Source: Clostridiales bacterium (lineage in GTDB: Bacteria; Bacillota; Clostridia; Christensenellales; Aristaeellaceae). From it: a DNA stretch of 64,000 bases. Below, piece by piece: positions 418 to 27,449 of the stretch. The notes under the pieces were generated by a model. It searched no databases. It was not told the DNA's origin and saw only the letters and a program-made list of their open reading frames with translations. The stretch is from NCBI GenBank assembly GCA_017569285.1, contig CP069419.1:2418001-2482000 (forward strand), written 5' to 3'. Numbering within the stretch: position 1 is the stretch's first letter; each line of letters begins with the position of its first letter. The translations under genes were made by a program, and so were the position numbers.

Positions 418-779
418 TGCGCATGCGCCCCACCGACGGCACCGGCGACATCCTGCCGGTGCGAAGCACTGCTGCCCTCCTCACCGGCGCAGGAGCGGCC
501 GCCGAGCTGGTCCGCTGCCGCCTGAACCTCCTGCCGGGGGAATGGTGGGAGAACCCGGACCACGGCTGCGCCGTATTCCGCATGCTGCGGGAGGAACGGC
601 TGACCGCAGAAGGCAAAACCGCCCTGGCCGCCTACCTCACCGCGACCATCCGCGCCACGCCCGGCGTCCGTGCCGTGGACCGCGTCTCCGCCGCCGTCAC
701 CGGAAGGCAGTTCACGTATTCCTGTGAAATCCGCACGGATGATGGCACCGCGGATGTTTCCTTTTCCCTCTCAACCTGA
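417..779 (+). CDS. Baseplate wedge protein, gp25/XkdS-like
   Basis: A 120-residue protein starting eight bases after a GGAGG. The centre (RCRLNLLPGEWWENPDHGC) followed by a helical middle and a beta C-terminus that ends in polar strands resembles small gp25/W-type or XkdS-type baseplate components that sit next to baseplate J in contractile tails. The position, directly before the J gene and sharing a TGATG junction, supports this more than the sequence does. Likely part of the phage baseplate; exact family not certain. Confidence 0.6.
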   Translation: MRMRPTDGTGDILPVRSTAALLTGAGAAAELVRCRLNLLPGEWWENPDHGCAVFRMLREERLTAEGKTALAAYLTATIRATPGVRAVDRVSAAVTGRQFTYSCEIRTDDGTADVSFSLST

Positions 780-796
780 TGAAAGGAGAATGCTCC

Positions 797-1717
797 ATCG
801 CTTATTTCGCACCCTACATCGACGATACCGGCCTCCACATGCCCACCTACGCGGAGCGGCTGGAAGCCCTGACCGAAGCCTATTACGGCATCTTCGGCAT
901 CGACGCGGAGCTCTCCGAAGCCGTGCCGGACTACCAGCTGCTGTCCGTGATTGCCCGGGCCCTGGACGACCTGTCCCAGCTGGTGCTGGAGGCATACAAC
1001 AGCCGCAATCCGCTGTACGCCTCCGGGCAGGCGCTGGACCTGCTGCTGCCCCTGTACGGCCTGCGGAGGCAGGAAGGGGAGACGGACGCCCATGCCCGCG
1101 GCCGGATCCTCCCAGCCCTGGCGGGAAACGGGAACGCCTCGGCGGAAAGCATCGCCGCGGCGATCCTTCAGGTGCCGGACGTGCTCCAGGCCCAGGTGCA
1201 CGAAAACGACACCGACCAGACCGACGGGAAAGGAATCCCGCCCCACAGCATCTGCTGCGTGGTGGACGCCGGGAAGAAGGCGGACGTCGCGGACACCATC
1301 TTCCGCAAAAAGGCGCCGGGCATCGGGACGCACGGAACCACCGCCGTTTCCGTAACCGACGGAAACGGCGTTTCCCATACCGTGCGCTTTTCCCGCCCGG
1401 CGCAGTCTCCCGTGAACGTCTACATCGACATTACGGCCTATGCGGGATATGACCCTGAAACGACGGACGCCGTCGGGCGGGCGGCGGAGGACTACCTGAG
1501 AAGCCTCCGGATCGGCCAGTCCCTGGTGGTGCCCCGGCTGTACGGGGCCTGCTACGCCGCGGCGGGAGGGCAGGCGTCCGCCTTCGCCATCTCGGATATC
1601 CGGGCGGACTGCCCGCTCATACCCGAAATCACCCGGGAACTGGTGCCGGCAGGCTGGAACACCCGGCTGTATACCGCCTACCCGGACCGGGTGTTCATCA
1701 CCGTGACGGACGCGTAA
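797..1717 (+). CDS. Baseplate J family protein (Mu gp47-like), apparent ATC start
   Basis: About 306 residues. The N-terminus (AYFAPYIDDTGLHMPTYAERLE), the helical VPDYQLLSVIARALDDLS block and the C-terminal PDRVFITVTD strand are characteristic of baseplate J / Mu gp47 proteins, which form the wedge ring of contractile tails. Start choice is unusual: a perfect AAAGGAG (782-788) is followed after eight bases by ATC at 797, exactly where relatives begin with M-A-Y-F. The only in-frame ATG (779) lies upstream of the Shine-Dalgarno and overlaps the previous stop (TGATG). Either ATC initiates, or coupled ATG779 adds six residues. Confidence 0.85.
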   Translation: MAYFAPYIDDTGLHMPTYAERLEALTEAYYGIFGIDAELSEAVPDYQLLSVIARALDDLSQLVLEAYNSRNPLYASGQALDLLLPLYGLRRQEGETDAHARGRILPALAGNGNASAESIAAAILQVPDVLQAQVHENDTDQTDGKGIPPHSICCVVDAGKKADVADTIFRKKAPGIGTHGTTAVSVTDGNGVSHTVRFSRPAQSPVNVYIDITAYAGYDPETTDAVGRAAEDYLRSLRIGQSLVVPRLYGACYAAAGGQASAFAISDIRADCPLIPEITRELVPAGWNTRLYTAYPDRVFITVTDA

Positions 1718-1730
1718 GGAGGGGAGAACC

Positions 1731-2150
1731 ATCGACTACATGACCCTGTTTCCCGCGTATACCCGCCGGAAGCCCCGCTTCTGCGCCCTGGTGCAGGCCA
1801 TCCTCTCCCAGGCGCAGGACCTGGAAACCGCCATCCGGGCAATCCCCGCGGCCTTCTCCCCGGAGGGGGCCGGGGGCGCCCGGCTGGACGCCCTAGGCAG
1901 CGCCTCCGGTCTGCCAAGGCCGGAAGGCATGGCGGACGAGGACTACCGGCAGTACCTCCTGGCGAAGTTCACCCTCTTCACCTGGGACGGCACCAACGGG
2001 ACTGCCCAGCCGCTCCTCGAATCCGTCTTTCCCGGCTCCACCATCTCGGACAACGGGGACGGCACGGTGTCGGTCCATCCCGTCTCTGCGCTGCAGGAAG
2101 CCTTTCACCTTTACCCGGTTCCTGCCGGCATCTCTGCAGCGCAGAGATAA
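1731..2150 (+). CDS. Phage tail/baseplate-associated protein (DUF2612-like), apparent ATC start
   Basis: Around 139 residues. A segment rich in small residues (GARLDALGSASGLPRPEG) followed by YRQYLLAKFTLFTWDGT and a FPGSTISDNGDGTVSVHP strand resembles small tail proteins encoded after baseplate J (DUF2612-type, moderate recall). AAGGAGG at 1716-1722 is eight bases upstream of ATC at 1731, giving D-Y-M-T-L-F after the initiator. The nearest ATG (1740) is 17 bases from the Shine-Dalgarno, too far for normal use. Second of three genes in this prophage with this oddity. Confidence 0.65.
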   Translation: MDYMTLFPAYTRRKPRFCALVQAILSQAQDLETAIRAIPAAFSPEGAGGARLDALGSASGLPRPEGMADEDYRQYLLAKFTLFTWDGTNGTAQPLLESVFPGSTISDNGDGTVSVHPVSALQEAFHLYPVPAGISAAQR

Positions 2151-2187
2151 CTCTTCACTCTTCACTCATATCTCTTCACTCATCACT
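2151..2187 (+). repeat. Short tandem TCTTCACTC repeats
   Basis: The gap after the tail gene contains three imperfect copies of TCTTCACTC/TCTTCACTCAT in about 37 bases. No terminator or promoter is evident. Probably a simple-sequence expansion. Confidence 0.6.
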
Positions 2188-2214
2188 CCAACCCCCACGA
2201 AAGGAGGAACCCAC

Positions 2215-3063
2215 ATGCCCGTTACCGGACGCCAGCTCGCGCAGACTGTCCTCACCGCCCTGGAAAGGCAGGGCGGGTATATCTGGGGACAGTCCGGCGC
2301 CACCTGGACCCAAAGCAAACAGAAAAACCTGGAAAAGAAGTACAGCAGCAACCCGGAAGCCTATGCCGACTACAAATACTCCGCGAAATACGGAAGCAAA
2401 TGGATCGGCCATCCCGTGTGGGACTGCTCCGGCCTGTGCCGCTGGGCGATGAAGCAGCACGGGATTGCCATCGCCCACGGCTCCAATTCCATCTGGGACC
2501 GTTACCTGCAGAAGAAAGGAAAGCTCACCGATACCACAGTCCTCCCGGAAGGCGCCGCCGTGTTCACCGGCACGGACCAAAAGAAACCGCACATCGGCAC
2601 CTATACCGGGGACGGCCTGGTGACGGAGGCTTCCGGCGCCATCGCCGGCGTGGTCCGGACGAAGCTCTATGGCGGCAAGTGGAAATACTGGGGCCTCTTC
2701 AAGGGTGTCCAGTATGACACCCCGGCGGAAGACCCGGCGGCCCAAAGCCCAGCCGCAGAAAGCCCGGCCGATCCAACTGCCAGCACGCCTATACCCGACG
2801 CTCCAACAGCCCCGTCCGCCCAACCTGCATCCTCAACCCCCGTCTCAACTGTCCGCCCCACCCTGCGCAAGGGCGCGAAAGGGGAGCCCGTTACCGCCAT
2901 GCAGCAGGCGCTCATTCGGGCGGGCTTCCCGCTGCCGAAGTACGGCGCGGACGGAAAATTCGGCAATGAAACCCGGTCCGCCCTGAAGGCTTTCCAGAAG
3001 GCCAGCGGCCTGCAGGCGGACGGCATCTGCGGCCCGAAGACCTGGGCCGCCCTGGAACCATAA
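2215..3063 (+). CDS. Phage endolysin: NlpC/P60-type hydrolase with peptidoglycan-binding domain
   Basis: 282 residues with ATG after AAAGGAGG. The N-terminal half is a CHAP/NlpC-P60-like amidase or endopeptidase: the catalytic cysteine sits in WDCSGLCRW (about residue 72) and the histidine in KPHIGTYTGDG (about residue 124). A Pro/Ala-rich linker (about 170-215) leads to a C-terminal PG_binding_1 repeat (TLRKGAKGEPVTAMQQAL to GPKTWAALEP). It lies between the tail genes and the holin, the usual place for a lysis enzyme, and would cut peptidoglycan stem peptides at lysis. Confidence 0.9.
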   Translation: MPVTGRQLAQTVLTALERQGGYIWGQSGATWTQSKQKNLEKKYSSNPEAYADYKYSAKYGSKWIGHPVWDCSGLCRWAMKQHGIAIAHGSNSIWDRYLQKKGKLTDTTVLPEGAAVFTGTDQKKPHIGTYTGDGLVTEASGAIAGVVRTKLYGGKWKYWGLFKGVQYDTPAEDPAAQSPAAESPADPTASTPIPDAPTAPSAQPASSTPVSTVRPTLRKGAKGEPVTAMQQALIRAGFPLPKYGADGKFGNETRSALKAFQKASGLQADGICGPKTWAALEP

Positions 3064-7824: not shown

Positions 7825-9027
7825 TTACTTTTCCGCGGCCTTGAAGTTGTAAACCGGACGGATGATTTCCACGATGTCTACGGATTCCCGGACAGCGTCC
7901 AGGATATCTTCCATCCGCTTGTAAGCCATCGGGGATTCATCCAGGGTTTCCCGGGTAGCGGTGGTGGTGTAGATTCCTTCCATGGCGGCTTTGTAGTCAT
8001 CCAGGGAAAGTGTCTCAAACGCCTTTTTCCGGGACATGATCCGGCCGGCCCCGTGGGGAGCGGAATAGTTCCAATCCTCATTCCCGCGGCCGATGGCGAT
8101 GATACTGCCGTCCCGCATGTTGATGGGGATCAGCACCCGTTCTCCGGCGTGAGCCGCGATTGCTCCCTTCCGCAGGATCATTTCATCGGTATCGATGTAG
8201 TTATGGACGGTGTGGAAACTTTCCAGCCCGGTCATGCCAGTCTTCTTCAGGATCAGCCCGGCCATGATTTCCCGGTTCCGGACGGCAAACTCCTGGCAGA
8301 TCTTTACATCGTGGAGGTAATCCTCCAGGTGCTGTCCTTCCAGGTGGCACAGGCTGTCCGGGGCGGTCTTGTGATTCAGCCGGAGCCGCAGGGCATCCAG
8401 TTCTGTCTGGATTTCCTTCTCGCGGCCTTCCGCCTTCAGCCGTTCGATCAGTTCGGGGGCTGATTCCTTGTAATCTTCTTTGCCTTCGGCGATATCCACA
8501 GCCAGTTGCTGGTAGTATTCACATACCTGCTTGCCGAGGTTCCGGCTGCCGGAATGGATGATCAGCCAGAAGGTTCCGTCTTCAGACCGGTCAATCTCAA
8601 TGAAGTGGTTGCCGCCTCCCAGGGTGCCCAGGGAATTCTTCAGCCAGTTCCGCTTTTGAAGCTTCCGGTAACACCGGAGCTGTTCCAGGTCAAAAACCTC
8701 CCGGGGAGAATCCCAGACGTTCATGCCGCTGGGAATCCAGTGGCAGACTTCATCCACCCGGGCAAAGTCCACCCGCTTATCCGCAAGCTTAGTCGTATAC
8801 ATTCCGCAGCCGATATCCACGCCGACCACATTGGGAACCGCTTTGCCCCGGATGGTCATGGTGGTCCCGATGGTACAGCCCTTCCCGGCATGCACATCGG
8901 GCATGATCCGGACCCGGCAGCCCTCGGTGAAAGCCTGGTCGCACATGGTCCGGATCTGCTCTTCTGCCACATCTTCTATTTCCTTTGCGTAGCTGATTGC
9001 TGTCGCAAACTTACCCTTGATTTCCAT
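7825..9027 (-). CDS. rtcB: RNA-splicing ligase RtcB
   Basis: 400 residues, the usual bacterial length. RtcB joins RNA ends carrying 2',3'-cyclic phosphate or 3'-phosphate to 5'-OH using GTP and Mn2+. Visible motifs: MPDVHAGKG, VVGVDIGCGMY (metal Cys), LGGGNHFIE, IHSGSRNLG and SAPHGAGRIMSR, whose His is the guanylylated residue. ATG 9027 is preceded by AAAGGATAGAAAA. It is the last gene of a minus-strand locus with a DUF2828/TROVE-like protein, structured RNAs and two WYL regulators, which points to repair of cleaved tRNA or other RNA. The 218-base leader contains strong RNA hairpins. Confidence 0.95.
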   Translation of the reverse strand: MEIKGKFATAISYAKEIEDVAEEQIRTMCDQAFTEGCRVRIMPDVHAGKGCTIGTTMTIRGKAVPNVVGVDIGCGMYTTKLADKRVDFARVDEVCHWIPSGMNVWDSPREVFDLEQLRCYRKLQKRNWLKNSLGTLGGGNHFIEIDRSEDGTFWLIIHSGSRNLGKQVCEYYQQLAVDIAEGKEDYKESAPELIERLKAEGREKEIQTELDALRLRLNHKTAPDSLCHLEGQHLEDYLHDVKICQEFAVRNREIMAGLILKKTGMTGLESFHTVHNYIDTDEMILRKGAIAAHAGERVLIPINMRDGSIIAIGRGNEDWNYSAPHGAGRIMSRKKAFETLSLDDYKAAMEGIYTTTATRETLDESPMAYKRMEDILDAVRESVDIVEIIRPVYNFKAAEK

Positions 9028-9245: not shown

Positions 9246-10703
9246 TTATGCGCAGACCGGCGCATACCGTTCGCTGAGCAGGACTTCCTTCATCAGCAGC
9301 ACGGGATCAAACTTTCCGTTAGCCACCATGGAGAAAATCCGGGGTGTGCAGCCGCTGACCAGGATGACTCCCTGTTCATTCATGCTGACCGGCTGCTGCT
9401 GGTTCCGGCTCTGGACATTCCAGAAGACGACCTTGGGCAGATGATAACCGTGCTTTTCAAACAGCCTTTTTGCGTATTCGAAGTTGGTCAGCTCCGCACT
9501 ATCAGCACAGCAGTCGAACTCCATATCGGAGATGAAGTACAGCGTTTCCGGCAGTTCCTCCTGCGGCAGCCGGTGATTGACTGCCGTGGACAGGATCAGC
9601 TCGAAGACCTTCTGGATATCGGTGTTGGCCACTTCGTTGAAGGTTTCGCAGTACTGCACCTTTTCCACCAGATCCTTTCCCTTGATTTCCACCAGCCGGG
9701 GATTCCGGGAGAAGGTGATGAAGTGGTTATGGAATTCACCCTTGCAATGCTCCGCAAAATACATGCCCAGGGACAGTGCAACCGTGATCGGATTCGGAGT
9801 TCCCCAGCCGTACATGGAGCCGGAACCGTCGATGACGCACAGGGCGTTTCCCTGCGGCGCATAGTCCTCCAGCGCGTTCCAGGTCACGTCCAACGCCTTC
9901 CGCTCTGTCTCATCCCCGCGGAAACAGATGGCCTTTTCCACGATGTCATACGGATACAGTGTGGCGGTATGAATGGTTTCCTCACCCTTGGAAACCCGCT
10001 CCAGGAAAGCACTGTAACGCTCCTCATCATTCCGGTGGAAGGCCTTGCGGTATTTCAGCATCGCTTTGGACGGCTGCGCGGAATACTCGAAGGTATAGTC
10101 CTTCTGCCGCAGGTTGTTCTCGATGATCCGGATTTTTGCCCGCAGGCGTACCAGGGTTTTCCGGTACTGCGCTTCCGTCATGCCCAGGGCTCTCGCGATG
10201 CGCTTTGCATCCTTCACAGCGTCGGCACTGGAAGTGTTTACGGACGGCAGCCACTTGGCCATCAGGGAAACATTCTCCCCGGCTTCCAGGGCAGCCAGGT
10301 CTTTCGCCAGCTGCTCCTGGATCACTGCCATGGCTTCCTTTTCGCATTTGGTCCCAAAGAGGACCGTCAGGTCATCCCAGCGTCCGTATTCACTGACCAG
10401 GTGCAGGTTCTTCCGGACAGACTCCGGCTGTGCATCCGCCAGATGCTTCAGGATCGTCCGGAATACCCGGCGCTCACCCAGGCCGCCCCGGATATCCCGG
10501 GAATAGAACAGCATTTTCATGGCCAGATCGCGGTCCTCGGCATATGCACGGGCAAAGCGGACGATGATTTCCTGCTCTTCGGCATTCCGAAGCGCCCCGA
10601 TGGTTGCAAACAGGTCCAGGCATTCCGAACCGGTGGTCCGCAGGGTCGCGGCGCTGTTTTCGGTCAGGGTCCGGTTCGCTTCTTTTTTCAGTTCATTCAG
10701 CAT
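9246..10703 (-). CDS. DUF2828 / TROVE-like RNA-binding protein with vWA domain (Ro60-like)
   Basis: About 485 residues. The N-terminal two thirds are helical repeats with motifs such as LFYSRDIRGGLGERRVFRTIL and LVSEYGRWDDLTVLFG, characteristic of DUF2828, which is related to the Ro60/TROVE fold. The C-terminal third is a von Willebrand A domain with the metal-site motif CVIDGSGSMYG (DxSxS). Ro-like proteins bind misfolded RNAs and Y RNAs; with rtcB downstream and tRNA-like RNAs upstream, this is probably the RNA-holding partner. ATG 10703 is nine bases from AAAGGAGG; ATG 10709 is three. Plain TROVE versus DUF2828 assignment rests on motif recall. Confidence 0.82.
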   Translation of the reverse strand: MLNELKKEANRTLTENSAATLRTTGSECLDLFATIGALRNAEEQEIIVRFARAYAEDRDLAMKMLFYSRDIRGGLGERRVFRTILKHLADAQPESVRKNLHLVSEYGRWDDLTVLFGTKCEKEAMAVIQEQLAKDLAALEAGENVSLMAKWLPSVNTSSADAVKDAKRIARALGMTEAQYRKTLVRLRAKIRIIENNLRQKDYTFEYSAQPSKAMLKYRKAFHRNDEERYSAFLERVSKGEETIHTATLYPYDIVEKAICFRGDETERKALDVTWNALEDYAPQGNALCVIDGSGSMYGWGTPNPITVALSLGMYFAEHCKGEFHNHFITFSRNPRLVEIKGKDLVEKVQYCETFNEVANTDIQKVFELILSTAVNHRLPQEELPETLYFISDMEFDCCADSAELTNFEYAKRLFEKHGYHLPKVVFWNVQSRNQQQPVSMNEQGVILVSGCTPRIFSMVANGKFDPVLLMKEVLLSERYAPVCA

Positions 10704-10739
10704 GTTCATCGCCCTCCTTTGCGTGAATCATTCAGGTAC

Positions 10740-10820
10740 AAGATGCCGTTTTTTCCGCGAGGGGGATTCGAACCCCGGCTGCAAGCAGCCCTGCCTTGGA
10801 ATGATTGCGGTCGACATCTT
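10740..10820 (-). ncRNA. Structured RNA unit 1 (Y-RNA/tRNA-like)
   Basis: Outer helix AAGATG/CATCTT (10815-10820 with 10740-10745), supported by an inner CCG/CGG. Inside are a GGCTG-CTTG-CAGCC hairpin and a textbook T arm, CGGGG-TTCGAAT-CCCC, followed by CTCGCGG which pairs partly with the 5' CCGC. No real D or anticodon arm. A CCGCAATC box near the 5' side corresponds to the CCAGCAA box of the other units. It ends 31 bases before the DUF2828 start codon, so it may also sit in that mRNA leader. Confidence 0.6.
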
Positions 10821-10829
10821 TGGGAAACC

Positions 10830-10952
10830 AGATACCTTATCATGTTCAGGGGGAGAATCACCTTGCATGCAGTGTGTGCCCCTGTCTCCGGGCCCAAAAC
10901 CCGACGTCCGCGAACATGAAACAACGGACCAACAATGTTGCTGGAGGTATCT
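10830..10952 (-). ncRNA. Structured RNA unit 2 (tRNA-like)
   Basis: Outer helix AGATACCT/AGGTATCT (8 bp perfect) directly followed by CCAGCAAC on the 5' side. An inner perfect helix CATGTTC/GAACATG (10912-10918 with 10841-10847) resembles an acceptor stem. It encloses an anticodon-like arm TCGGG-TTTTGGG-CCCGG (10888-10904) and a GGGG...CCCC arm. A D arm is lacking. The seven-base loop TTTTGGG matches the TTTCGGG loops of units 5 and 6. Confidence 0.65.
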
Positions 10953-10961
10953 GCAGGAAAC

Positions 10962-11014
10962 AAGGTGCAGTTTTAAGCTCCAATTGCTTTTTACAGGATT
11001 GCTGGCTGCACCTT
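10962..11014 (-). ncRNA. Structured RNA unit 3 (short form)
   Basis: A 53-base unit closed by AAGGTGCAG/CTGCACCTT, nine perfect pairs, with CCAGCAAT immediately inside the 5' strand. The interior is short and AT-rich with at most an AAGC/GCTT hairpin. The outer helix differs at many positions from the other units yet remains fully paired, which is the best evidence that pairing is conserved. Confidence 0.62.
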
Positions 11015-11019
11015 TCGAC

Positions 11020-11085
11020 AAGATACTGTTTCAGGCTGCTGAATCCAGCTGCTGCCGATTACCAATCGGTTGCTGGCAGTATCTT
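11020..11085 (-). ncRNA. Structured RNA unit 4 (three-way junction)
   Basis: 66 bases closed by AAGATACTG/CAGTATCTT (nine perfect pairs). Inside, CCAGC pairs with GCTGG around a CCGATT-GGT-AATCGG hairpin, and TTCAG-CAGC-CTGAA makes a second hairpin, giving a compact three-way junction. The CCAGCAA box is present at the 5' side. No anticodon-like loop is evident. Confidence 0.65.
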
Positions 11086-11093
11086 ATGCCGGC

Positions 11094-11245
11094 AAGATAC
11101 CATTACGTTTCCGATGGCAGGAATTTCACCTGCTGATCACACGGCCCGAAACCGTGCGCTCCTTGGGCTCAGGTGTCCGTTCCCGGCGTTCCTTTCACCG
11201 TCACCTTGGAGCTAATCGAATCATCGATTTTGCTGGTGGTATCTT
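11094..11245 (-). ncRNA. Structured RNA unit 5 (tRNA-like with enlarged D region)
   Basis: 152 bases closed by AAGATACCA/TGGTATCTT (nine perfect pairs) with CCAGCAAA at the 5' side. Then ATCGA-TGAT-TCGAT hairpin, an acceptor-like CGAT/ATCG, a D-like GCTCC...GGAGC arm with a long insert, an anticodon-like arm CACGG-TTTCGGG-CCGTG and a T-like arm GCAGG-TGAAATT-CCTGC. The arms occur in tRNA order. The anticodon loop would read TCG, but the T loop is not canonical and no normal acceptor exists, so it is a tRNA mimic rather than a tRNA. Confidence 0.68.
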
Positions 11246-11249
11246 ATCT

Positions 11250-11320
11250 CGCTCCGGGAAGGAATCGAACCTTCGTCAGACGGTTAACAGCCGCACGTTC
11301 TGCCATTGAACCACCGGAAC
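11250..11320 (-). tRNA. tRNA-Asn(GTT)-like gene, possibly degenerate
   Basis: A full 71-base cloverleaf: acceptor GTTCCGG/CCGGAGC (one G-T), D arm GTTC...GAAC, anticodon loop CTGTTAA with GTT, four-base variable loop, T arm GAAGG-TTCGATT-CCTTC. CCA is not encoded. The anticodon stem is imperfect (T-C mismatch at its base and a G-T), and the body is unlike usual Asn tRNAs. It lies between RNA units 5 and 6 without its own outer helix. It may be a decoy or repair-substrate tRNA instead of a housekeeping one. Confidence 0.55.
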
Positions 11321-11343
11321 ACACAATGCAGAGAGGAAAAACA

Positions 11344-11451
11344 AGACACCCTTTTGTCGAAGGGAGGAATCACACCTCCCGCCACTCTGTCCCGAAAACA
11401 GATGCTCTGTACTGAGCTATTCGTTCAAAGAACGGATTGCTGTAGGTGTCT
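11344..11451 (-). ncRNA. Structured RNA unit 6 (most tRNA-like)
   Basis: 108 bases closed by AGACACC/GGTGTCT. The 5' box reads TACAGCAAT. Then CGTTC-TTT-GAACG hairpin, acceptor-like CGAA/TTCG helix, D arm GCTC-AGTACA-GAGC, anticodon arm TCTGT-TTTCGGG-ACAGA and T arm GGAGG-TGTGATT-CCTCC. The CGAA/TTCG helix closing the mimic recalls the Ro-binding helix reported for bacterial Y RNAs (recollection, to be verified). First unit of the array in the direction of transcription. Confidence 0.68.
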
Positions 11452-11564
11452 CTCAGAGGAAAGCGCTTCTCTCCCTTTGTGAAGCCATTTGGAGATCGCG
11501 GGTGCCAAGGTCACAGGGAAAATGTTTCCCAGGACGGAGAATCTTTCGATCCTTGCTTCACTGA

Positions 11565-11738
11565 TCAACCGCACTGCTTACGCAGCCGCGCTTCCGGATG
11601 ATCACGCGGACAGAGTTTGGTCTGGCAAATCACCAACCGCGCCCCTTCCTGCCCAAGGCGCATCTGATAGTGAGTCAGAATAATCCACTTTAAATGCTGT
11701 CTGCGCCTCAGATCATCCGGTGATCCTCTCTGCAGCAT
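11565..11738 (-). CDS. Possible 57-residue ORF between WYL gene and RNA array
   Basis: An ATG-to-TGA frame of 57 codons (MLQRGSPDDLRRRQHLKWII... ending RLRKQCG) with a strongly basic composition and three cysteines. It lies in the leader between the WYL gene and the RNA units. No good ribosome site precedes it (AATCTTC before the ATG). It may be a remnant, a small basic RNA-binding peptide or chance. The remaining sequence of 11452-11796 shows only small hairpins, such as GGGAAA...TTTCCC. Confidence 0.25.
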   Translation of the reverse strand: MLQRGSPDDLRRRQHLKWIILTHYQMRLGQEGARLVICQTKLCPRDHPEARLRKQCG

Positions 11739-11796
11739 GAAGATTATCAGGTTTTTAGAATAAGATCATGGAAAAAAAGTTGCGAACTCTTCTTTT

Positions 11797-12711
11797 TCAG
11801 GTGAGATTGTACCGATACTGCTTCTTAATGCGTTCCCGAATGAGGGCGGCAAAACGGTCCGGCTCTACGACCCTGACCAGTGGACCGAAGGAGATGATTT
11901 TGATCACCAGTTCCGTTTCATCCTCCTGCCGGTAGTGCAGGGTCATCCGGTATGTATTTTCACCGGTCCGCTCCGTACGCTTGGCCAGGTAGGAGAACTG
12001 CAGCATGGCGCGTTCCAGCGCGTTCCGCTCGTTGGTGATTTCCAGCGTCAGGGATTCATTGGTCAGCTTCGGAACGGGATATTCATCCGGATCGAAGGTT
12101 CCCCACAGGCGGACATAGGTTATCCGTGAAAGGTTCAGCGTCCGGTTGCTCCATTTCTTGCTGTGGCAGAGCAGACGGAATTTGTCGTCCGTGGAAGAGT
12201 ATTCCAGGCGGTACGGAATCACAGTCCAGTTGTTGTGAGCGCCCCGGTGGCTGTCAAAGATCACCTGGGTTTTCCGGTGCGTCTTCACCGCCTCCAGCAG
12301 AAGACGAAAACGCTCGATATATCCTTCATCCTCATAGGGATCCCCGTTGCTGTACCGGTCATACCATACGATCTTCCCGGGATCAAAGAGCGGCTGGACA
12401 TCCTCCAGGCCTTCATCCGTCAGGCCGAAAAGGCGGATGCGCGGATCCAGCAGCAGGGTTTTCAGCCAGCGCTTCTGCAGCAGGGTAACCGGATGCGGCG
12501 GAATATGGCGGATCATGGTTTTGCAGTCCGGGGTGACCAGCGGCCAGTTTCCGTTCCGCAGGTTGGCCGGAATGACCAGCATGCTTTCCCCGAAGCCCTG
12601 CTTCGCTGCGATTTCGCCGATCTTCTCCCGGGTCAGGGTGCCTTCCACAGCTTCGGAAAGGATCTCAGAGACACAGGCATAATATTCGCCGTAATATTCA
12701 CTGAACAACAT
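11797..12711 (-). CDS. WYL-domain transcriptional regulator (second of pair)
   Basis: 304 residues. The central part (KTHRKTQVIFDSHRGAHNNWTVIPYRLEYSSTDDKFRLLCHSKK) is a WYL domain, an Sm-like fold that senses nucleic acids or nucleotides; the C-terminus (LEITNERNALERAMLQFSYLAKRTERTGENTYRMTLHYRQEDE) is the WCX extension. The usual N-terminal winged helix is short or divergent. Its ATG overlaps the last base of the upstream WYL gene, so the two are translated together and probably form a heteromeric sensor controlling the RNA-repair locus. Confidence 0.8.
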   Translation of the reverse strand: MLFSEYYGEYYACVSEILSEAVEGTLTREKIGEIAAKQGFGESMLVIPANLRNGNWPLVTPDCKTMIRHIPPHPVTLLQKRWLKTLLLDPRIRLFGLTDEGLEDVQPLFDPGKIVWYDRYSNGDPYEDEGYIERFRLLLEAVKTHRKTQVIFDSHRGAHNNWTVIPYRLEYSSTDDKFRLLCHSKKWSNRTLNLSRITYVRLWGTFDPDEYPVPKLTNESLTLEITNERNALERAMLQFSYLAKRTERTGENTYRMTLHYRQEDETELVIKIISFGPLVRVVEPDRFAALIRERIKKQYRYNLT

Positions 12712-13925
12712 TATGCCTCACCTCCGTACAGCCGGCGCATCTTTTCCAGGTCCTCCCGGAAAAGCCGGGTAATATAGGGATTGGAGCACTCCAGCTTTAC
12801 AATCCTGCCGATAAATGTGCGGATCCAGGGGATCATCTCGGACGCATCGTAAACATCCGCGGTGAACTTCCAGGTTTCCGCATCCGCCTGTTCCACGGCC
12901 CCATGGCGCTTTTCACGGTTCAGCCGGTCCACGATAAATCCTTCATCTGGATCGGCATGGACCAGCATTTCAATATGGTCCAGCGAATGCTCCCCGGCGG
13001 AAACGCCCCACAGGTGCTGATCAAATTCTTTCCAGAATCTCTCATATTTCTCCAGATTCGGGTCCACACCCAGCGGCTTGATTTTCCGGATGCTGTCCAG
13101 ACGGAAGAACATCGGCTTCCTGAACGCATAATGATAACCCAGGAGATACTGACGCCCGCTCTGGGTGGAGAAATACAGGCGCATCGGATATACCTGGTGC
13201 CGCAGTTCCTTCTTTTTCCTCCGGGAGAAGATGTTCAGCTCAGCCCCGCGGTTTTCTTCCATGCATCGGAACAGGCCGTACAGAACTTCGCTGTCCAGGG
13301 CGCCCAGCAGGTACTGGTGCTTGAATTCGAAAGGGGAGTCTCCGCCCTGCGGGAAATAGCTTCCGATGACGCCCAGCGGCGCGGTTTCAGAGAAAAAGGC
13401 AATCGCGTCCCGCCAGGCAGGCAGCTGCCGGAAGGGCTTTGCCAGGGAATACACCAGGGTCCTGCCTTTCTTTTCGGAAAGGACGATTCCCATCTGCTCG
13501 TATTCCTTCAGCTTGTTCCGTACTGTGCCCTCATCCGGGAACTCTGCCTCAAACGGTTTCAGGTATTCATCCGTGATCCGGTCCAGGCATTCCTGCACGG
13601 TAGCCGGGCCCTCCGCCAGGATGTCCAGCAGGCAGAAATGCAGCAGGATATCCCAGTCGGTAAAGCTCCGGGTTTTGAAGGCAACATACAGCGGATTGCG
13701 GGAAAGCGTCCGGCTGTCGATGGAGATAAAGACCTTCTTGCCGTTTTCGTCATAGTAGGAATCAATATATCCTTCCAGCCAGGACTTTACCCTGCGGTAC
13801 TCATCATCGTAGATCCGGGCGCTCTTGGAATCAAACTCATCACGGCTCTTGAACCCATAGACATAGAAGTCCCGCATATAGGACCGGACTTTCTCGAAGT
13901 TTTTGATCAGTTCACTGTAGGCCAT
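12711..13925 (-). CDS. WYL-domain transcriptional regulator (first of pair)
   Basis: 404 residues. Residues about 60-165 contain helix-rich DNA-binding segments (LLDILAEGPATVQECLDRITDEYLKP and TVRNKLKEYEQMGIVLSEKKGRTLVYSL, a winged helix). The WYL domain follows (about 225-285: LNIFSRRKKKELRHQVYPMRLYFSTQSGRQYLLGYH), then a WCX-like end. Pairs of WYL proteins preceding RtcB/Ro-like genes are recognised in Firmicutes-type RNA-repair loci (general knowledge). Promoter must lie in 13926-14134, shared with the divergent PPC gene. Confidence 0.82.
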   Translation of the reverse strand: MAYSELIKNFEKVRSYMRDFYVYGFKSRDEFDSKSARIYDDEYRRVKSWLEGYIDSYYDENGKKVFISIDSRTLSRNPLYVAFKTRSFTDWDILLHFCLLDILAEGPATVQECLDRITDEYLKPFEAEFPDEGTVRNKLKEYEQMGIVLSEKKGRTLVYSLAKPFRQLPAWRDAIAFFSETAPLGVIGSYFPQGGDSPFEFKHQYLLGALDSEVLYGLFRCMEENRGAELNIFSRRKKKELRHQVYPMRLYFSTQSGRQYLLGYHYAFRKPMFFRLDSIRKIKPLGVDPNLEKYERFWKEFDQHLWGVSAGEHSLDHIEMLVHADPDEGFIVDRLNREKRHGAVEQADAETWKFTADVYDASEMIPWIRTFIGRIVKLECSNPYITRLFREDLEKMRRLYGGEA

Positions 13926-25430: not shown

Positions 25431-26459
25431 ATGGTGATGACTTTGACCACGAAAGAACTGGAAAAGATTGCCTGGGCCCCGTATGACCTCATCCGGAACC
25501 CCACCCAGGAGGACTGGAAGAAATCATATGACGCCCTGCGGCAGCTGGAAAAGGAAAACCCCAAGGACGGCCGCTACCCGAATACCCTCGGATACCTCTG
25601 CTATTACGGCCGCCATACCGGGCAGCGGAACTACGAGGAAGCCCGCATGTGGTTCGAGAAGGGCGAAAAGCTCGATGTGATTGAATCCATGTACAAGCTG
25701 GCGGATATGCTGACAGAGGGAATGGGCGGTCCGGCGGACCCGGACCGCGCCCTGAAGCTCCGCCTCCTGGTTTACTACATCTGCCGGGACCAGTTTGAAG
25801 ACGGCATGCAGGACAGCAAATTCGCGGATGCCGCCCTGCGGATGGGAAGAATGTACCACGAGGGAAAGCTGTGCCATCGGAACGACCTGGAAGCCATGAG
25901 CTACCTGCTGGAAGCCAAGTACGCCATCGAATGCCGGAAGCAGTACCACGAGTACGGCGATGAAACCGTGGAGAAGAACATCCTGCGGGTGATGGACGAG
26001 TGCGACAAGCCGGACGACGAGGTCCGGAGATGGAAACAGTTCGGCCTGGGCCTCAGCCGCGTACCCAACCACCTGCTCGCCAATGACGATCTCCTCATGA
26101 CCATTAAGATGGACGTGGATGACCGGGGCACTATCCGCCTGGAATTCCGCCGGAAGCGGAAGGACGGCAAAAAGCCCAACAAAATCCTCTGGTCCGTCGC
26201 CCCGGCCATGAAGGTATTCATGCTGGACAGCGTGGTCCTCTACGGCGCGGAAGTGAAGCAGATCTGGAGCAAAACCCCGGAGGAAACCGTCACCTGTAAC
26301 CGCTATGAATACGACGAGGACTCCGACACCTACACCTTCTTCCTGGAGGACGAACCCCAGTTCCGCCTCCAGGGCGGCTGGTTCGTCCTCCCGATGGATG
26401 AGCTCCGGAAGACGGAAATCGCCAGCCACCCGGCCGGGGCACCGGGCGTGTGGCAGTAA
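25431..26459 (+). CDS. Sel1-like/TPR repeat protein
   Basis: 342 residues from ATG 25431 (ACGAAAGGC upstream). The N-terminal 190 residues contain helical pairs of the Sel1/TPR type: NTLGYLCYYGRHTGQRNYEEARMWFEKGEK, ESMYKLADMLTEGMGGPADPDRAL, DAALRMGRMYHEGKLCHRNDLEAMSYL. The C-terminal 140 residues are beta-rich with charged strands (MTIKMDVDDRGTIRLEFRRKRKDG) and unassigned. A protein-protein interaction role is likely. Operon with the 99-residue gene upstream and perhaps the phosphatase downstream. Confidence 0.72.
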   Translation: MVMTLTTKELEKIAWAPYDLIRNPTQEDWKKSYDALRQLEKENPKDGRYPNTLGYLCYYGRHTGQRNYEEARMWFEKGEKLDVIESMYKLADMLTEGMGGPADPDRALKLRLLVYYICRDQFEDGMQDSKFADAALRMGRMYHEGKLCHRNDLEAMSYLLEAKYAIECRKQYHEYGDETVEKNILRVMDECDKPDDEVRRWKQFGLGLSRVPNHLLANDDLLMTIKMDVDDRGTIRLEFRRKRKDGKKPNKILWSVAPAMKVFMLDSVVLYGAEVKQIWSKTPEETVTCNRYEYDEDSDTYTFFLEDEPQFRLQGGWFVLPMDELRKTEIASHPAGAPGVWQ

Positions 26460-26486
26460 CCCCGGGGAAAGGAAGGGAAGGAAGAT

Positions 26487-27449
26487 ATGGCCAAAGTCAG
26501 ACCCACCGCCCCGCCCGGAACCAGAACCAGATCCACCTTCAATATCACCCTCAAAACCACGCCCAAAACCCTGGCCGAGCTCAACACCTTACCGCCGCTC
26601 CCGTTCCGGAACCCCTACCTGATTCCCTGGGAAGACCCGCCGGATGCCCCCGGCCGGCCGTACCGGACCAATGCCGCAGATATCCACAGCCATGTCCTGC
26701 CCAACCTGGATGACGGCGCCATCTGCATGGAGGAATCCCTGGAGCTGCTCCGCCTGGACCGGGAGGAAGGCGTCCGCACCGTATTCGCCACCCCGCATTA
26801 CGGAAAGGAAAACGGCTTTGCCCCGACCACCGCGGATACCTTCAATGTTTTCAACCGCCTGCAGGCAGCGGCCAGGAAAACCTACCCGGAAATAGAACTC
26901 TTTTTCGGCACGGAATGGTACTGCTCGGAAAACATTGTGGAACGGATCCGCAGCAAAGAAGCCTGGCCGATGATGCCCTCCGACTGGTATATGGTGGAAT
27001 TTATGGAATGGAGAGGAAACACCGAGCCGGCGGAGGCCATTCTCCGCCGGCTGAAGAAGATGAAGGACAACCATATCAAGACCATCCTGGCCCACGCGGA
27101 ACGCTACACCGCCCTCCAGGAGGACTGGAACCTGGCCAAACGCATCTGTGACATGGGCATCCTCCTCCAGGTGAACGCCTTTGACCTCCAGATGAACACG
27201 AACGAGGACACCCGGAGCCTGGCCCAGTGGATGGCGAAAGAGCACCTGATCTCCTTCCTCGGAAGCGACATGCACGGCATCCGCCCGGGCAGGCGCTTCC
27301 CCAAGATGCGCAAGGGCATCCGCTGGCTGTATGAGAACGTCGAGGAAGACTACGCCAACGACGTCGTCCGCCGCAATGCCGAGAAGTACCTGGGCATACC
27401 GAAGCTGAAGGAGGAAATCGGGGCGAGCGATGAAGCTAAAGAGAAATAG
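26487..27449 (+). CDS. CpsB/CapC-type PHP tyrosine phosphatase or PHP hydrolase
   Basis: 320 residues. After about 65 poorly conserved residues the PHP domain starts with ADIHSHVLPNLDDGA (His-x-His metal ligands and the DDGA loop of the CpsB family), then VRTVFATPHYGKENGF, ELFFGTEWYC, HIKTILAHAERYTALQ and LISFLGSDMHGIRPGRRF. These are the metal-binding motifs of manganese-dependent protein-tyrosine phosphatases controlling capsule synthesis. No capsule genes are nearby, so the substrate is open. The N-terminal extension is atypical. Terminator follows. Confidence 0.83.
   Translation: MAKVRPTAPPGTRTRSTFNITLKTTPKTLAELNTLPPLPFRNPYLIPWEDPPDAPGRPYRTNAADIHSHVLPNLDDGAICMEESLELLRLDREEGVRTVFATPHYGKENGFAPTTADTFNVFNRLQAAARKTYPEIELFFGTEWYCSENIVERIRSKEAWPMMPSDWYMVEFMEWRGNTEPAEAILRRLKKMKDNHIKTILAHAERYTALQEDWNLAKRICDMGILLQVNAFDLQMNTNEDTRSLAQWMAKEHLISFLGSDMHGIRPGRRFPKMRKGIRWLYENVEEDYANDVVRRNAEKYLGIPKLKEEIGASDEAKEK

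Follow-up and report, generated by a model that had tools for sequence, protein, structure and literature searches.

Bacterial Y RNAs, of which YrlA (Rfam RF02553) is the closest described example to the RNAs considered here, are small RNAs that mimic tRNA and are encoded beside the gene for a Ro-fold protein (Rsr/TROVE Ro60), in some bacteria in an operon with rtcB. In Salmonella the rsr-yrlBA-rtcBA RNA repair operon brings together a Ro-like gene, two such RNAs and RtcB, and tRNA fragments with cyclic phosphate activate the rtcBA operon through RtcR, a sigma-54 activator with a CARF domain (PMC7790460). Hughes et al. (2020) state that Deinococcus Rsr is tethered by Y RNA to PNPase, and report that Salmonella YrlA is not cut by the tRNA nuclease active there, although they suggest that its tRNA-like domain could inhibit this enzyme competitively (PMC7790460). 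In phages, a review of jumbo phages notes that a small subset has a ROT/TROVE protein that in cells forms an RNA-repair platform with a tRNA-like partner (PMC7824862), and abundant non-coding RNAs upstream of an Rsr-like gene of Listeria phage CKA15 have been proposed as possible Y RNAs (PMC12282133). Here a related arrangement is described from a Clostridiales bacterium, within a 64,000-nucleotide stretch of DNA (the window; GCA_017569285.1, contig CP069419.1, positions 2,418,001 to 2,482,000), in which a row of predicted small RNA units lies beside a DUF2828 gene with a predicted Ro60-like fold and an rtcB gene.

Anatomy of the array

The minus strand of 10740-11709 holds at least seven units and a genuine tRNA-Asn (Table 1). 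Each unit comprises an 8-9 bp outer helix, a CAGCAA-type box inside the 5' arm and a variable core. The initial annotation described six units with paired outer helices, boxes, and anticodon-like and T-like arms, and this observation is confirmed, as all of these elements are present where they were placed. Several additions and corrections apply: the seventh unit lies outside the range originally given, the tRNA-Asn (ARAGORN; Rfam, 60.4 bits) was not mentioned, the outer helix of unit 1 is 9 bp and not 6, and unit 4 also carries an anticodon-like hairpin. Covariation among the six units, to which the initial annotation pointed, is weak evidence by itself but is confirmed by relatives.

Table 1. 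Features of the array and its neighbors (window coordinates; boxes and arms as read on the minus strand).
Coordinates	Strand	Feature	Description
7825..9027	-	RtcB RNA ligase	
9246..10709	-	DUF2828 + DUF7788 protein	Ro60-like predicted fold; DGSGSM metal-site-like motif; proposed binder of the units
10740..10820	-	Unit 1	9-bp outer helix AAGATGTCG/CGGCATCTT with one G-U; variant box CCGCAA; hairpin plus T-arm GGGG-UUCGAAU-CCCC closed by CCGC/GCGG
10829..10953	-	Unit 2	Outer helix CAGATACCT/AGGTATCTG; CCAGCAA box; anticodon-like arm UCGGG-UUUUGGG-CCCGG
10962..11014	-	Unit 3	Short unit; outer helix AAGGTGCAG/CTGCACCTT; CCAGCAA box
11020..11085	-	Unit 4	Outer helix AAGATACTG/CAGTATCTT; CCAGCAA box; 4-bp hairpin CCGA-UUGGUAA-UCGG, loop identical to the anticodon loop of host tRNA-Thr(GGU)
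11094..11245	-	Unit 5	Outer helix AAGATACCA/TGGTATCTT; CCAGCAA box; tRNA-like body with enlarged D-arm, anticodon arm CACGG-UUUCGGG-CCGUG and T-arm (folded as 11096-11245)
11249..11321	-	tRNA-Asn(GUU)	Genuine tRNA inside the array, between units 5 and 6
11344..11451	-	Unit 6	Outer helix AGACACC/GGTGTCT (plus a U-G pair); ACAGCAA box; near-complete tRNA-like body (27.0 bits, model positions 4-67); anticodon arm UCUGU-UUUCGGG-ACAGA
11655..11709	-	Unit 7	GAGGCGC/GCGCCTT(G) helix; ACAGCAT box; 5-bp hairpin UCUGA-CUCACUA-UCAGA
11797..12711	-	WYL/WCX-type putative ligand-sensing regulator	WCX below Pfam cut-off; PADLOC WYL E=1.3e-12
12711..13925	-	Second WYL-domain putative regulator	

The array is more than chance would provide. 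A helix-plus-box scan of both strands of the whole window gave 6 hits, all on the minus strand inside the array (units 1-5 and 7; unit 6 did not pass the filters of that scan but was found by a separate one), whereas thirty dinucleotide shuffles of the window gave a mean of 0.37 and a maximum of 2. Folding z-scores for single units run from -0.25 to -3.04, the value for unit 2 (-0.25) not being significant alone. A promoter scan of the array region found 0 promoters and 2 terminator-like sites, no more than in shuffled sequence.

No unit of the window is an ordinary tRNA if an Rfam tRNA score above 29 bits with a complete acceptor stem is asked for: unit 6 falls below the 29-bit cut-off of the tRNA model and the other units give no tRNA hit. 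Units elsewhere do exceed this cut-off (up to 53.2 bits; in 5 of 12 sources scanned a unit passes it), a warning that some annotated tRNA genes may be such mimics. No Rfam family other than tRNA matches the array credibly. There is no YrlA hit in the array at E<=10, and the two weak YrlA hits in the genome are at tRNA genes elsewhere. Skipping-rope RNA (RF02924) was rejected, as its model hits a different RNA in one phage locus (L134) and nothing in the window region.

Distribution of the units

Similar units lie upstream of DUF2828 genes in 75 of 80 bacterial (genome) loci and 68 of 80 viral loci, the nearest unit often being 20-40 nt from the start, and in 10 of 12 phage or plasmid records chosen from longer hit lists; the two without units are Cronobacter phage GAP32 and Vibrio phage TCU-VP04-AIR2. 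Five of 20 DUF2828 loci of the close clade in the same family show no unit, one of them being cut by a contig end, and the 8 loci of distant paralogs (40-47% identity) have none apart from one chance-like match. A sequence pattern for the units occurs in 13 of 28 genomes with DUF2828 and in 1 of 172 without. Fourteen TROVE-type Ro loci show no such array; a TROVE protein scan of viral contigs found no relative, so that the TROVE phage loci came from annotated phages, the 8 TROVE phages being chosen from longer hit lists. The DUF2828 family itself is found in 681 of 50,697 phage records.

The scan for units asked for pairing and for AG at helix positions 2-3, so its pair counts and the apparent fixity of A2 and G3 are conditioned on that. 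Without asking for AG or the closing G, among units with a >=8-bp helix and CAGCAA within 600 nt upstream, AAG begins 79 of 122 bacterial and 35 of 78 viral units, and the next base is G in 105 of 122 and 53 of 78. The scan gave 489 hits, of which 480 remained after removal of overlaps, 433 had a closing G and 396 were distinct; units over 200 nt were then dropped and 42 from same-family genomes added, giving 429. The sets of loci overlap (L081 and L085 with G104 C104 and G055 C30) and hold near-identical phages.

The outer helix is supported without assuming it. Of 184 upstream 5' motifs in genome loci, found without asking for pairing, 163 have a >=7-bp partner within 220 nt, against 30% when downstream sequences are swapped, and in viral loci 121 of 149 do, against 13%. 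For the cloverleaf, 30 tRNA-like units were aligned, picked by eye (29 from the list of units with a T-arm, plus window unit 6): 95.4% of cells pair, 17 of 22 pairs have double changes, and 134 double-changed cells compare with 40.5 (sd 5.6) in shuffles and 22-28 in slid registers.

Cores and anticodon loops

Cores include normal-order tRNA cloverleaves, apparently permuted YrlA-like tRNAs and short hairpins, but most short cores are unclassified: 304 of 396 units have no T-arm, and only 59 of 303 units without a T-loop motif show an anticodon-like loop. A permuted layout was called in 13 of 396 units by script, some by length alone, while the tRNA-like window units 5 and 6 are in normal order. 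Permuted units of mycobacteriophages LeBron and Finnry score best against the YrlA model, at 39.8 and 39.5 bits (cut-off 69), the LeBron unit aligning to model positions 1-114.

In 48 of 429 units a 5-bp/7-nt hairpin has a loop identical to one of 43 anticodon loops of the window's genome (18 loops), whereas shuffles gave a mean of 0.41 (max 3 of 100) and reversed and reverse-complemented loops gave 0; some of the 48 are related to each other, including members of the 12 CUUUUAA units. The loops of window units 2, 5 and 6 (UUUUGGG, UUUCGGG), however, match none of the 46 distinct tRNAs found in this genome. Anticodon loops also diverge most among related units, with 29/84 positions changed over 12 disjoint pairs against 25/204 in T-arms and 19/228 in outer helices (Fisher p=2.5e-5 against the T-arm, 0.004 against the rest of the core), although three of the 12 pairs have unchanged anticodon loops. 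Window unit 6 and its ortholog in a related locus (L050), which carries CUGAUAA, differ in 6 of 7 loop positions, while the adjacent tRNA-Asn keeps its loop.

The DUF2828 protein and its setting

The protein encoded beside the array matches only DUF7788 and DUF2828 in Pfam; Pfam TROVE (PF05731) is not hit, no TROVE match was found in the window's genome, and a profile search of PDB sequences gave no hit. Its predicted structure (pLDDT 79.3, pTM 0.61) nevertheless has Ro60/TROVE structures as its only Foldseek hits at E<=0.001 (11 of 11; TM (query) 0.36-0.49), so that by structure comparison the model shows the helical-repeat part and the vWA domain with a metal-site motif of Ro60 proteins. Residues D294 and S296-M299 of the DGSGSM motif are invariant in 18 sequences.

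Hits to the window's RtcB occur in 40 of 80 genome loci, as do hits to the first WYL protein, and none of the same-strand WYL hits is downstream of the gene. None of 80 viral loci has a hit to the window's RtcB or WYL proteins within the flanks retrieved, although CKA15 has an annotated tRNA splicing ligase nearby. In CKA15 the DUF2828 protein is found in virions, and three heavily transcribed non-coding regions lie within 2 kb upstream (PMC12282133). Units lie in that interval, but the one region for which coordinates were found (26,236-26,727) is not the unit array.

Possible roles of the array

The initial annotation read the units as Y RNAs or as repair substrates or sensors, and this interpretation is supported only in part. 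A Y-RNA-like nature is well supported by the predicted fold of the adjacent protein, by the way the units track its gene across genomes and by an apparently permuted tRNA layout in part of the wider family, yet these are not canonical Y RNAs; a role as repair substrates or sensors remains possible. That the units might prove to be ordinary decayed tRNAs had been named in advance as grounds for rejection, and was not borne out, since a constant helix and box are kept with compensatory changes.

The explanation considered somewhat more likely than not is that the array encodes a set of Y-RNA-like small RNAs for the adjacent Ro-like protein. In this view the constant part (helix, box and usually a closing G) would be the protein-docking module, the variable core displays a tRNA body or a bare anticodon stem-loop, and the RNPs would act as decoys, and perhaps as damage sensors, for enzymes that recognize tRNA anticodon arms, above all anticodon nucleases. 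RtcB would reseal tRNAs or decoys that are cut, the two WYL proteins would switch the locus on when nucleotide or RNA-end signals appear, and in phages the same module would counter host anticodon nucleases. The anatomy of the units and their association with the gene are shown by the analysis, and so is the display of tRNA-like features for a minority of cores, by structure and loop identity; docking is inferred from conservation and association, and expression, binding, cleavage, decoying, sensing and the parts given to RtcB and the WYL proteins are likewise inferred. A literature search on tRNA decoys returned no papers. A bolder reading, possible but tentative, is that a Ro-like protein shared by bacteria and phages holds an evolvable repertoire of anticodon mimics, in which one constant docking hairpin presents interchangeable tRNA bodies or bare anticodon stem-loops and anticodons are swapped within a lineage to follow the anticodon nucleases met, a decoy arms race recorded in RNA arrays; if true, this would be of great interest.

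Other explanations appear less likely. The units may work like the Deinococcus Y RNA, as gates or tethers that let the Ro-like protein and an exonuclease such as PNPase handle damaged or misfolded tRNA-like RNAs, with the tRNA likeness serving recognition by tRNA enzymes or stability and not the decoying of nucleases. The predicted Ro60 fold and the sub-threshold YrlA scores of permuted units favor this, but it does not predict several different anticodon loops, bare anticodon stem-loops or fast change of the anticodon loop, and it is held to be unlikely. More doubtful still is that the units are damage sensors whose cleavage in the displayed loop yields fragments with 2',3'-cyclic phosphate that the WYL regulators sense to induce the operon; WYL hits in about half of genome loci and the Salmonella precedent agree with this, whereas the absence of hits to these WYL proteins from the 80 viral loci does not, and ligand sensing by them is putative.

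A cis-acting leader (T-box-like or attenuator) controlling DUF2828 expression would suit the mostly upstream position of the arrays, but was rejected as very unlikely, since units are downstream of the gene in LeBron, Finnry, a Staphylococcus phage and a Felix O1-like phage, are spread among tRNA genes over kilobases in others such as FADO, and occur several to a locus with differing cores. Decayed tRNA genes or a mobile repeat without RNA function, suggested by tRNA-like pieces and interleaved real tRNAs, are the least likely and already disfavored, given the compensatory change in helix and box in bacteria and phages and the association with one gene.

The role of bacterial Y RNAs and of Ro proteins being an open question, an RNA class that carries recognizable anticodon stem-loops and is tied to this protein family makes the decoying of anticodon nucleases a concrete and directly testable hypothesis, which would also link RNA repair with tRNA-targeting anti-phage defense.

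Comparison with described systems

The Y-RNA suggestion for CKA15 likewise concerns non-coding RNAs upstream of an Rsr-like gene, but no motif, structure or family was found in that account. Phage tRNA arrays are similar in that units are interleaved with or close to real tRNAs (CKA15, FADO, UAB_Phi87); the units, however, are closed by the constant helix instead of a normal acceptor end, and by inference are not expected to be charged. No mention of DUF2828 units was found in the account of phage ROT/TROVE proteins (PMC7824862). The Salmonella operon shares with this locus a gene for a Ro-like protein, here so by predicted fold, tRNA-like RNAs and RtcB with a regulator nearby, but here WYL proteins take the place of RtcR and an array of seven diverse RNAs that of two. 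Relative to YrlA with Rsr/TROVE Ro60, the protein is DUF2828/DUF7788 and not Pfam TROVE, the outer helix is short and carries a CAGCAA box in place of the YrlA stem (model consensus begins acggCgaAUGCuu), there are several units per locus, and normal-order cloverleaves and bare anticodon stem-loops occur, whereas the permuted subset of units appears to share with YrlA the layout outer stem, T-arm, acceptor stem and D-arm.

Organization of the RNA array

On the minus strand the genes run in the order two WYL-type proteins, the RNA array, a DUF2828+DUF7788 protein, and the RNA ligase RtcB, as identified with Pfam and PADLOC. The initial annotation had described six structured units in the array, and this observation holds, as all six are present. 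To these are added a seventh unit, lying upstream of the others, and a true tRNA-Asn gene located between units 5 and 6. The genome holds another tRNA-Asn with the same anticodon loop elsewhere. A scan for the outer helix and adjacent box over both strands of the whole 64 kb hits only this array (six hits, with unit 6 not passing the filters of the scan), against an average of 0.37 and a maximum of 2 in 30 dinucleotide shuffles. No Rfam family covers the units of the window: only the tRNA-Asn passes a cut-off, while unit 6 reaches 27.0 bits of the 29 required by the tRNA model. The block immediately upstream of unit 7 is partly conserved among relatives, including GATAATCTTCATGC and an inverted repeat GATCACCGGATGATC, and could be the promoter and regulator site of the array, although a scan for consensus promoters found nothing there. 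At the start of the window, open frames recognized by eye alone read like phage baseplate and lysin genes, so a prophage or tail-like element may lie there.

Coordinates of the features discussed (L, fetched locus; G and C, genome and contig)
Sequence	Position	Strand	Feature
Window	779-3063		Open frames reading like phage baseplate and lysin genes
Window	7825-9027	-	RtcB
Window	9246-10709	-	DUF2828+DUF7788 protein
Window	10740-11709	-	RNA array
Window	11249-11321		tRNA-Asn
Window	11655-11709	-	Unit 7
Window	11710-11790		Partly conserved block upstream of unit 7
Window	11797-12711	-	WYL-type protein
Window	12711-13925	-	WYL-type protein
L063	5786-5859		Unit above the Rfam tRNA cut-off
L107	4651-4709		Unit above the Rfam tRNA cut-off
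L011	1387-1458		Unit above the Rfam tRNA cut-off
L012	3021-3082		Unit above the Rfam tRNA cut-off
L073	5669-5730		Unit above the Rfam tRNA cut-off
L134	9185-9281		Skipping-rope RNA (RF02924)
L209 (Listeria phage CKA15)	6654-6918		Units
L209 (Listeria phage CKA15)	5480-5971 (record 26,236-26,727)		Abundantly transcribed region with two annotated frames
L228 (Brevundimonas phage Marchewka)	6761-7018		Permuted tmRNA (RF04321)
G179 C278	9485-9542		Unit on a contig other than that of the DUF2828 gene

Distribution of the units and association with DUF2828

The units form a family and are not a local oddity. A DUF2828 homolog is found in 28 of 200 genomes of the same family. The best 80 bacterial loci from genome contigs (as named in their records mostly Clostridia, also Synergistaceae, with cultured members such as Oscillibacter valericigenes Sjm18-20 and Butyrivibrio) and the best 80 viral loci from IMG/VR were then collected, and units occur within 2 kb upstream of the gene in 75 of 80 and 68 of 80, respectively. 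In the bacterial set 181 hits fall in 153 kb of upstream sequence, against 34 in 719 kb of other same-strand sequence and 17 in 872 kb of opposite strand. The corresponding numbers for the viral set are 156 in 157 kb, 118 in 814 kb, and 27 in 970 kb, with many of the 118 looking like further units beyond the 2 kb limit or downstream. A second viral unit type with shorter spacing (such as TAGATGATT-CAGCAA...AATCATCTAG), with units on both sides of the gene, is seen in viral loci L151, L153, L161-L163, L171-L172, L179, L185, L187, L189, L191, L204, and L206-L207. When a sequence pattern for the constant parts was searched through the 200 whole genomes it hit 13 of 28 genomes with DUF2828 and 1 of 172 without (Fisher p = 5e-12), while the reversed control pattern hit 1 of 200. 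The arms of the single hit without DUF2828, in genome G118, do not fully pair. All 13 belong to the 20 genomes with the closer (>=53% identity) protein, and in one genome, G179, a unit lies on a contig other than the one holding the DUF2828 gene. Five of the 20 close-clade loci show no unit, and the eight loci of more distant paralogs show none beyond one chance-like match.

The constant helix and box

Across 396 distinct units (172 bacterial and 224 viral), helix positions 1 and 4-7 appear as A-T, T-A, G-C, and C-G, although the scan that collected these units requires pairing and AG at positions 2-3, and so cannot show those features by itself. When pairing is not required, 163 of 184 5' motifs upstream of the bacterial genes have a partner of at least 7 bp within 220 nt, against 30% after swapping downstream sequences among units; for viruses the values are 121 of 149 against 13%. 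When neither AG nor a closing G is asked for, AAG begins 79 of 122 bacterial and 35 of 78 viral units, and G follows the helix in 105 of 122 and 53 of 78. Named phages vary the first bases, for example AGACC...GGTCT in a Felix O1-like phage. The box is the slowest part of the unit, with 2 of 84 differences in 12 disjoint pairs of related units.

tRNA mimicry in the variable cores

Three kinds of core are seen. Normal-order cloverleaves are represented by 30 units, picked by eye, that give a consensus of outer helix, D-arm, anticodon arm, and T-arm, in which 95.4% of cells pair, 17 of 22 pairs show double changes, and 134 double-changed cells compare with 40.5 (sd 5.6) in column shuffles and 22-28 in slid registers. 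T-arms are present in 56 of 172 bacterial and 36 of 224 viral units, against 0.03% and 0.13% of mononucleotide-shuffled cores. Some units, in loci L063, L107, L011, L012, and L073, score above the Rfam tRNA cut-off (39-53 bits) and may be annotated as tRNA genes in public genomes. Permuted tRNAs with the layout T-arm, acceptor, D-arm are found for example in mycobacteriophage LeBron, Bacillus phage FADO, Felix O1-like UAB_Phi87, and Sinorhizobium phage phiN3, and comprise 13 of 396 units as counted by script, some by length alone. The LeBron unit resembles the bacterial Y RNA YrlA (39.8 bits over the full model, against a cut-off of 69), with the good match in the tRNA-like domain and most unpaired positions in the outer stems. 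One viral locus, L134, has a skipping-rope RNA (62.4 bits) within a phage tRNA array that also has DUF2828 and units.

The third kind of core consists of short hairpins. Among 303 units without a T-loop motif, 59 have a 5-bp/7-nt hairpin with a YUNNNRN loop (22 of 109, 11 of 26, and 26 of 168, with shuffle means of 1.45, 0.17, and 2.91), whereas the majority of short cores remain unclassified. In a set of 429 units, 48 have a loop identical to one of 43 anticodon loops of the window genome's own tRNAs (46 distinct tRNA sequences). These represent 18 different loops, most often CUUUUAA (Lys, 12 units, several of them related) and CUUGAAA (Ser, 7 units). One hundred shuffles give a mean of 0.41 and a maximum of 3, and loops read backwards or as reverse complement give 0. 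Most of these units are from other organisms than the reference tRNAs; bacterial anticodon loops are widely shared. In the window, the loop of unit 4, UUGGUAA, is that of host tRNA-Thr(GGU), on a 4-bp stem, while units 2, 5, and 6 carry UUUUGGG or UUUCGGG, which match no tRNA found in this genome.

Divergence of the anticodon loop

The anticodon loop is the fastest changing part of the tRNA-like units. In 12 disjoint pairs of related units, differences are 29 of 84 in the anticodon loop, 21 of 120 in its stem, 107 of 536 in other core positions, 25 of 204 in the T-arm, and 19 of 228 in the outer helix (loop against T-arm p = 2.5e-5, loop against other core positions p = 0.004), although three of the 12 pairs have unchanged loops. 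A larger set of 38 non-independent pairs also puts the loop first (86 of 266, compared with 53 of 646 in the T-arm and 32 of 798 in the outer helix). The clearest case is local. In L050, a locus whose DUF2828 protein is 88% identical, unit 6 and the neighboring tRNA-Asn are conserved as a pair, but the loop UUUCGGG is replaced by CUGAUAA, the loop of tRNA-Ile(GAU) in the window's genome, with matching stem changes and a compensated T-arm pair, while the tRNA-Asn loop is unchanged.

The DUF2828 protein and its predicted fold

Pfam assigns DUF2828 and DUF7788 to the protein, and not TROVE. An AlphaFold2 model built from 18 relatives (pLDDT 79.3, pTM 0.61) has as its only Foldseek hits at E<=0.001 eleven Ro60/TROVE structures, including an early Ro autoantigen entry, Deinococcus Rsr, and a Thermus phage Ro60 (query TM 0.36-0.49, 12-14% identity). 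Homologs are held by 681 of 50,697 phage records, and many mycobacteriophage records name the protein "Ro-like RNA binding protein." The papers found under the name DUF2828 all concern plants by their titles and abstracts; speculatively, plant DUF2828 proteins may also be Ro-like and could have unrecognized RNA partners.

Transcription near the units in Listeria phage CKA15

A clue to expression comes from Listeria phage CKA15, in which the Ro-like protein was reported in purified virions (20 peptides), along with three very strongly transcribed non-coding regions that lie within 2 kb upstream of its gene and have detected promoters, with the speculation that they may be Y RNAs (PMC12282133). 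By our reading, the array in this phage starts shortly after TTGACA-N17-TATCAT. The one region for which coordinates were seen is not the array, so transcription of the units themselves is inferred. This region holds two annotated frames said to take about 67% of phage transcripts at 40 min, and no unit motif was found in it, so it is another, unidentified abundant RNA.

Possible mechanism

The analysis establishes a constant helix and box, cores of which a part imitates tRNA or its anticodon arm, a tight tie to a gene with a predicted Ro fold, and faster change of the anticodon loop. Docking of the protein by the constant part, decoying or sensing of anticodon-directed enzymes, repair by RtcB, and regulation by the WYL proteins are all inferred. 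RtcB is hit near 40 of 80 bacterial genes, in 33 of these downstream (ten loci without RtcB are cut short downstream), and the two WYL proteins are hit in 40 (WYL1) and 38 (WYL2) of 80. It has been suggested that the tRNA-like domain of YrlA could competitively inhibit an anticodon nuclease, and YrlA was found not to be cut (Hughes et al., 2020; PMC7790460). The present family, with different anticodons in one locus, fits that idea better than a single tRNA-like RNA does.

Relationship to TROVE loci and known Y RNAs

Six bacterial TROVE loci of this phylum have no unit under the strict rule, in which AG is required. Under the looser rule used for named phages (score 8.5), 14 TROVE loci (6 bacterial and 8 phage, 78 kb) give 7 forward and 4 reverse hits, which are scattered and form no array, and the 5 forward hits in annotated phages all begin inside coding genes. 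By comparison, 12 DUF2828 records (121 kb) give 43 forward and 4 reverse hits. Some TROVE phages show YrlA-type RNAs instead, below the cut-off (Gordonia phage Sixama with 46.8 bits and Brevundimonas phage Marchewka with 32.6 bits), and in the latter phage a permuted tmRNA (57.2 bits) lies near a tRNA and a TROVE gene. Although the TROVE sample is small, two Ro lineages thus appear to use tRNA mimics with different docking stems.

No description of these units was found in the titles and opening lines of abstracts returned by literature searches, among them PMC7790460, PMC7824862, PMC12282133, and PMC11208441, although a partial earlier description, especially for mycobacteriophages, cannot be excluded, for example in work reported to concern Y RNAs that mimic tRNAs (Chen et al., 2014) or RNA repair systems (Burroughs and Aravind, 2016), or in a 2020 review (Sim et al., 2020). 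The units and their protein are therefore placed with the Ro/Y-RNA particles, which are already known, with one part, the anticodon repertoire, that looks new.
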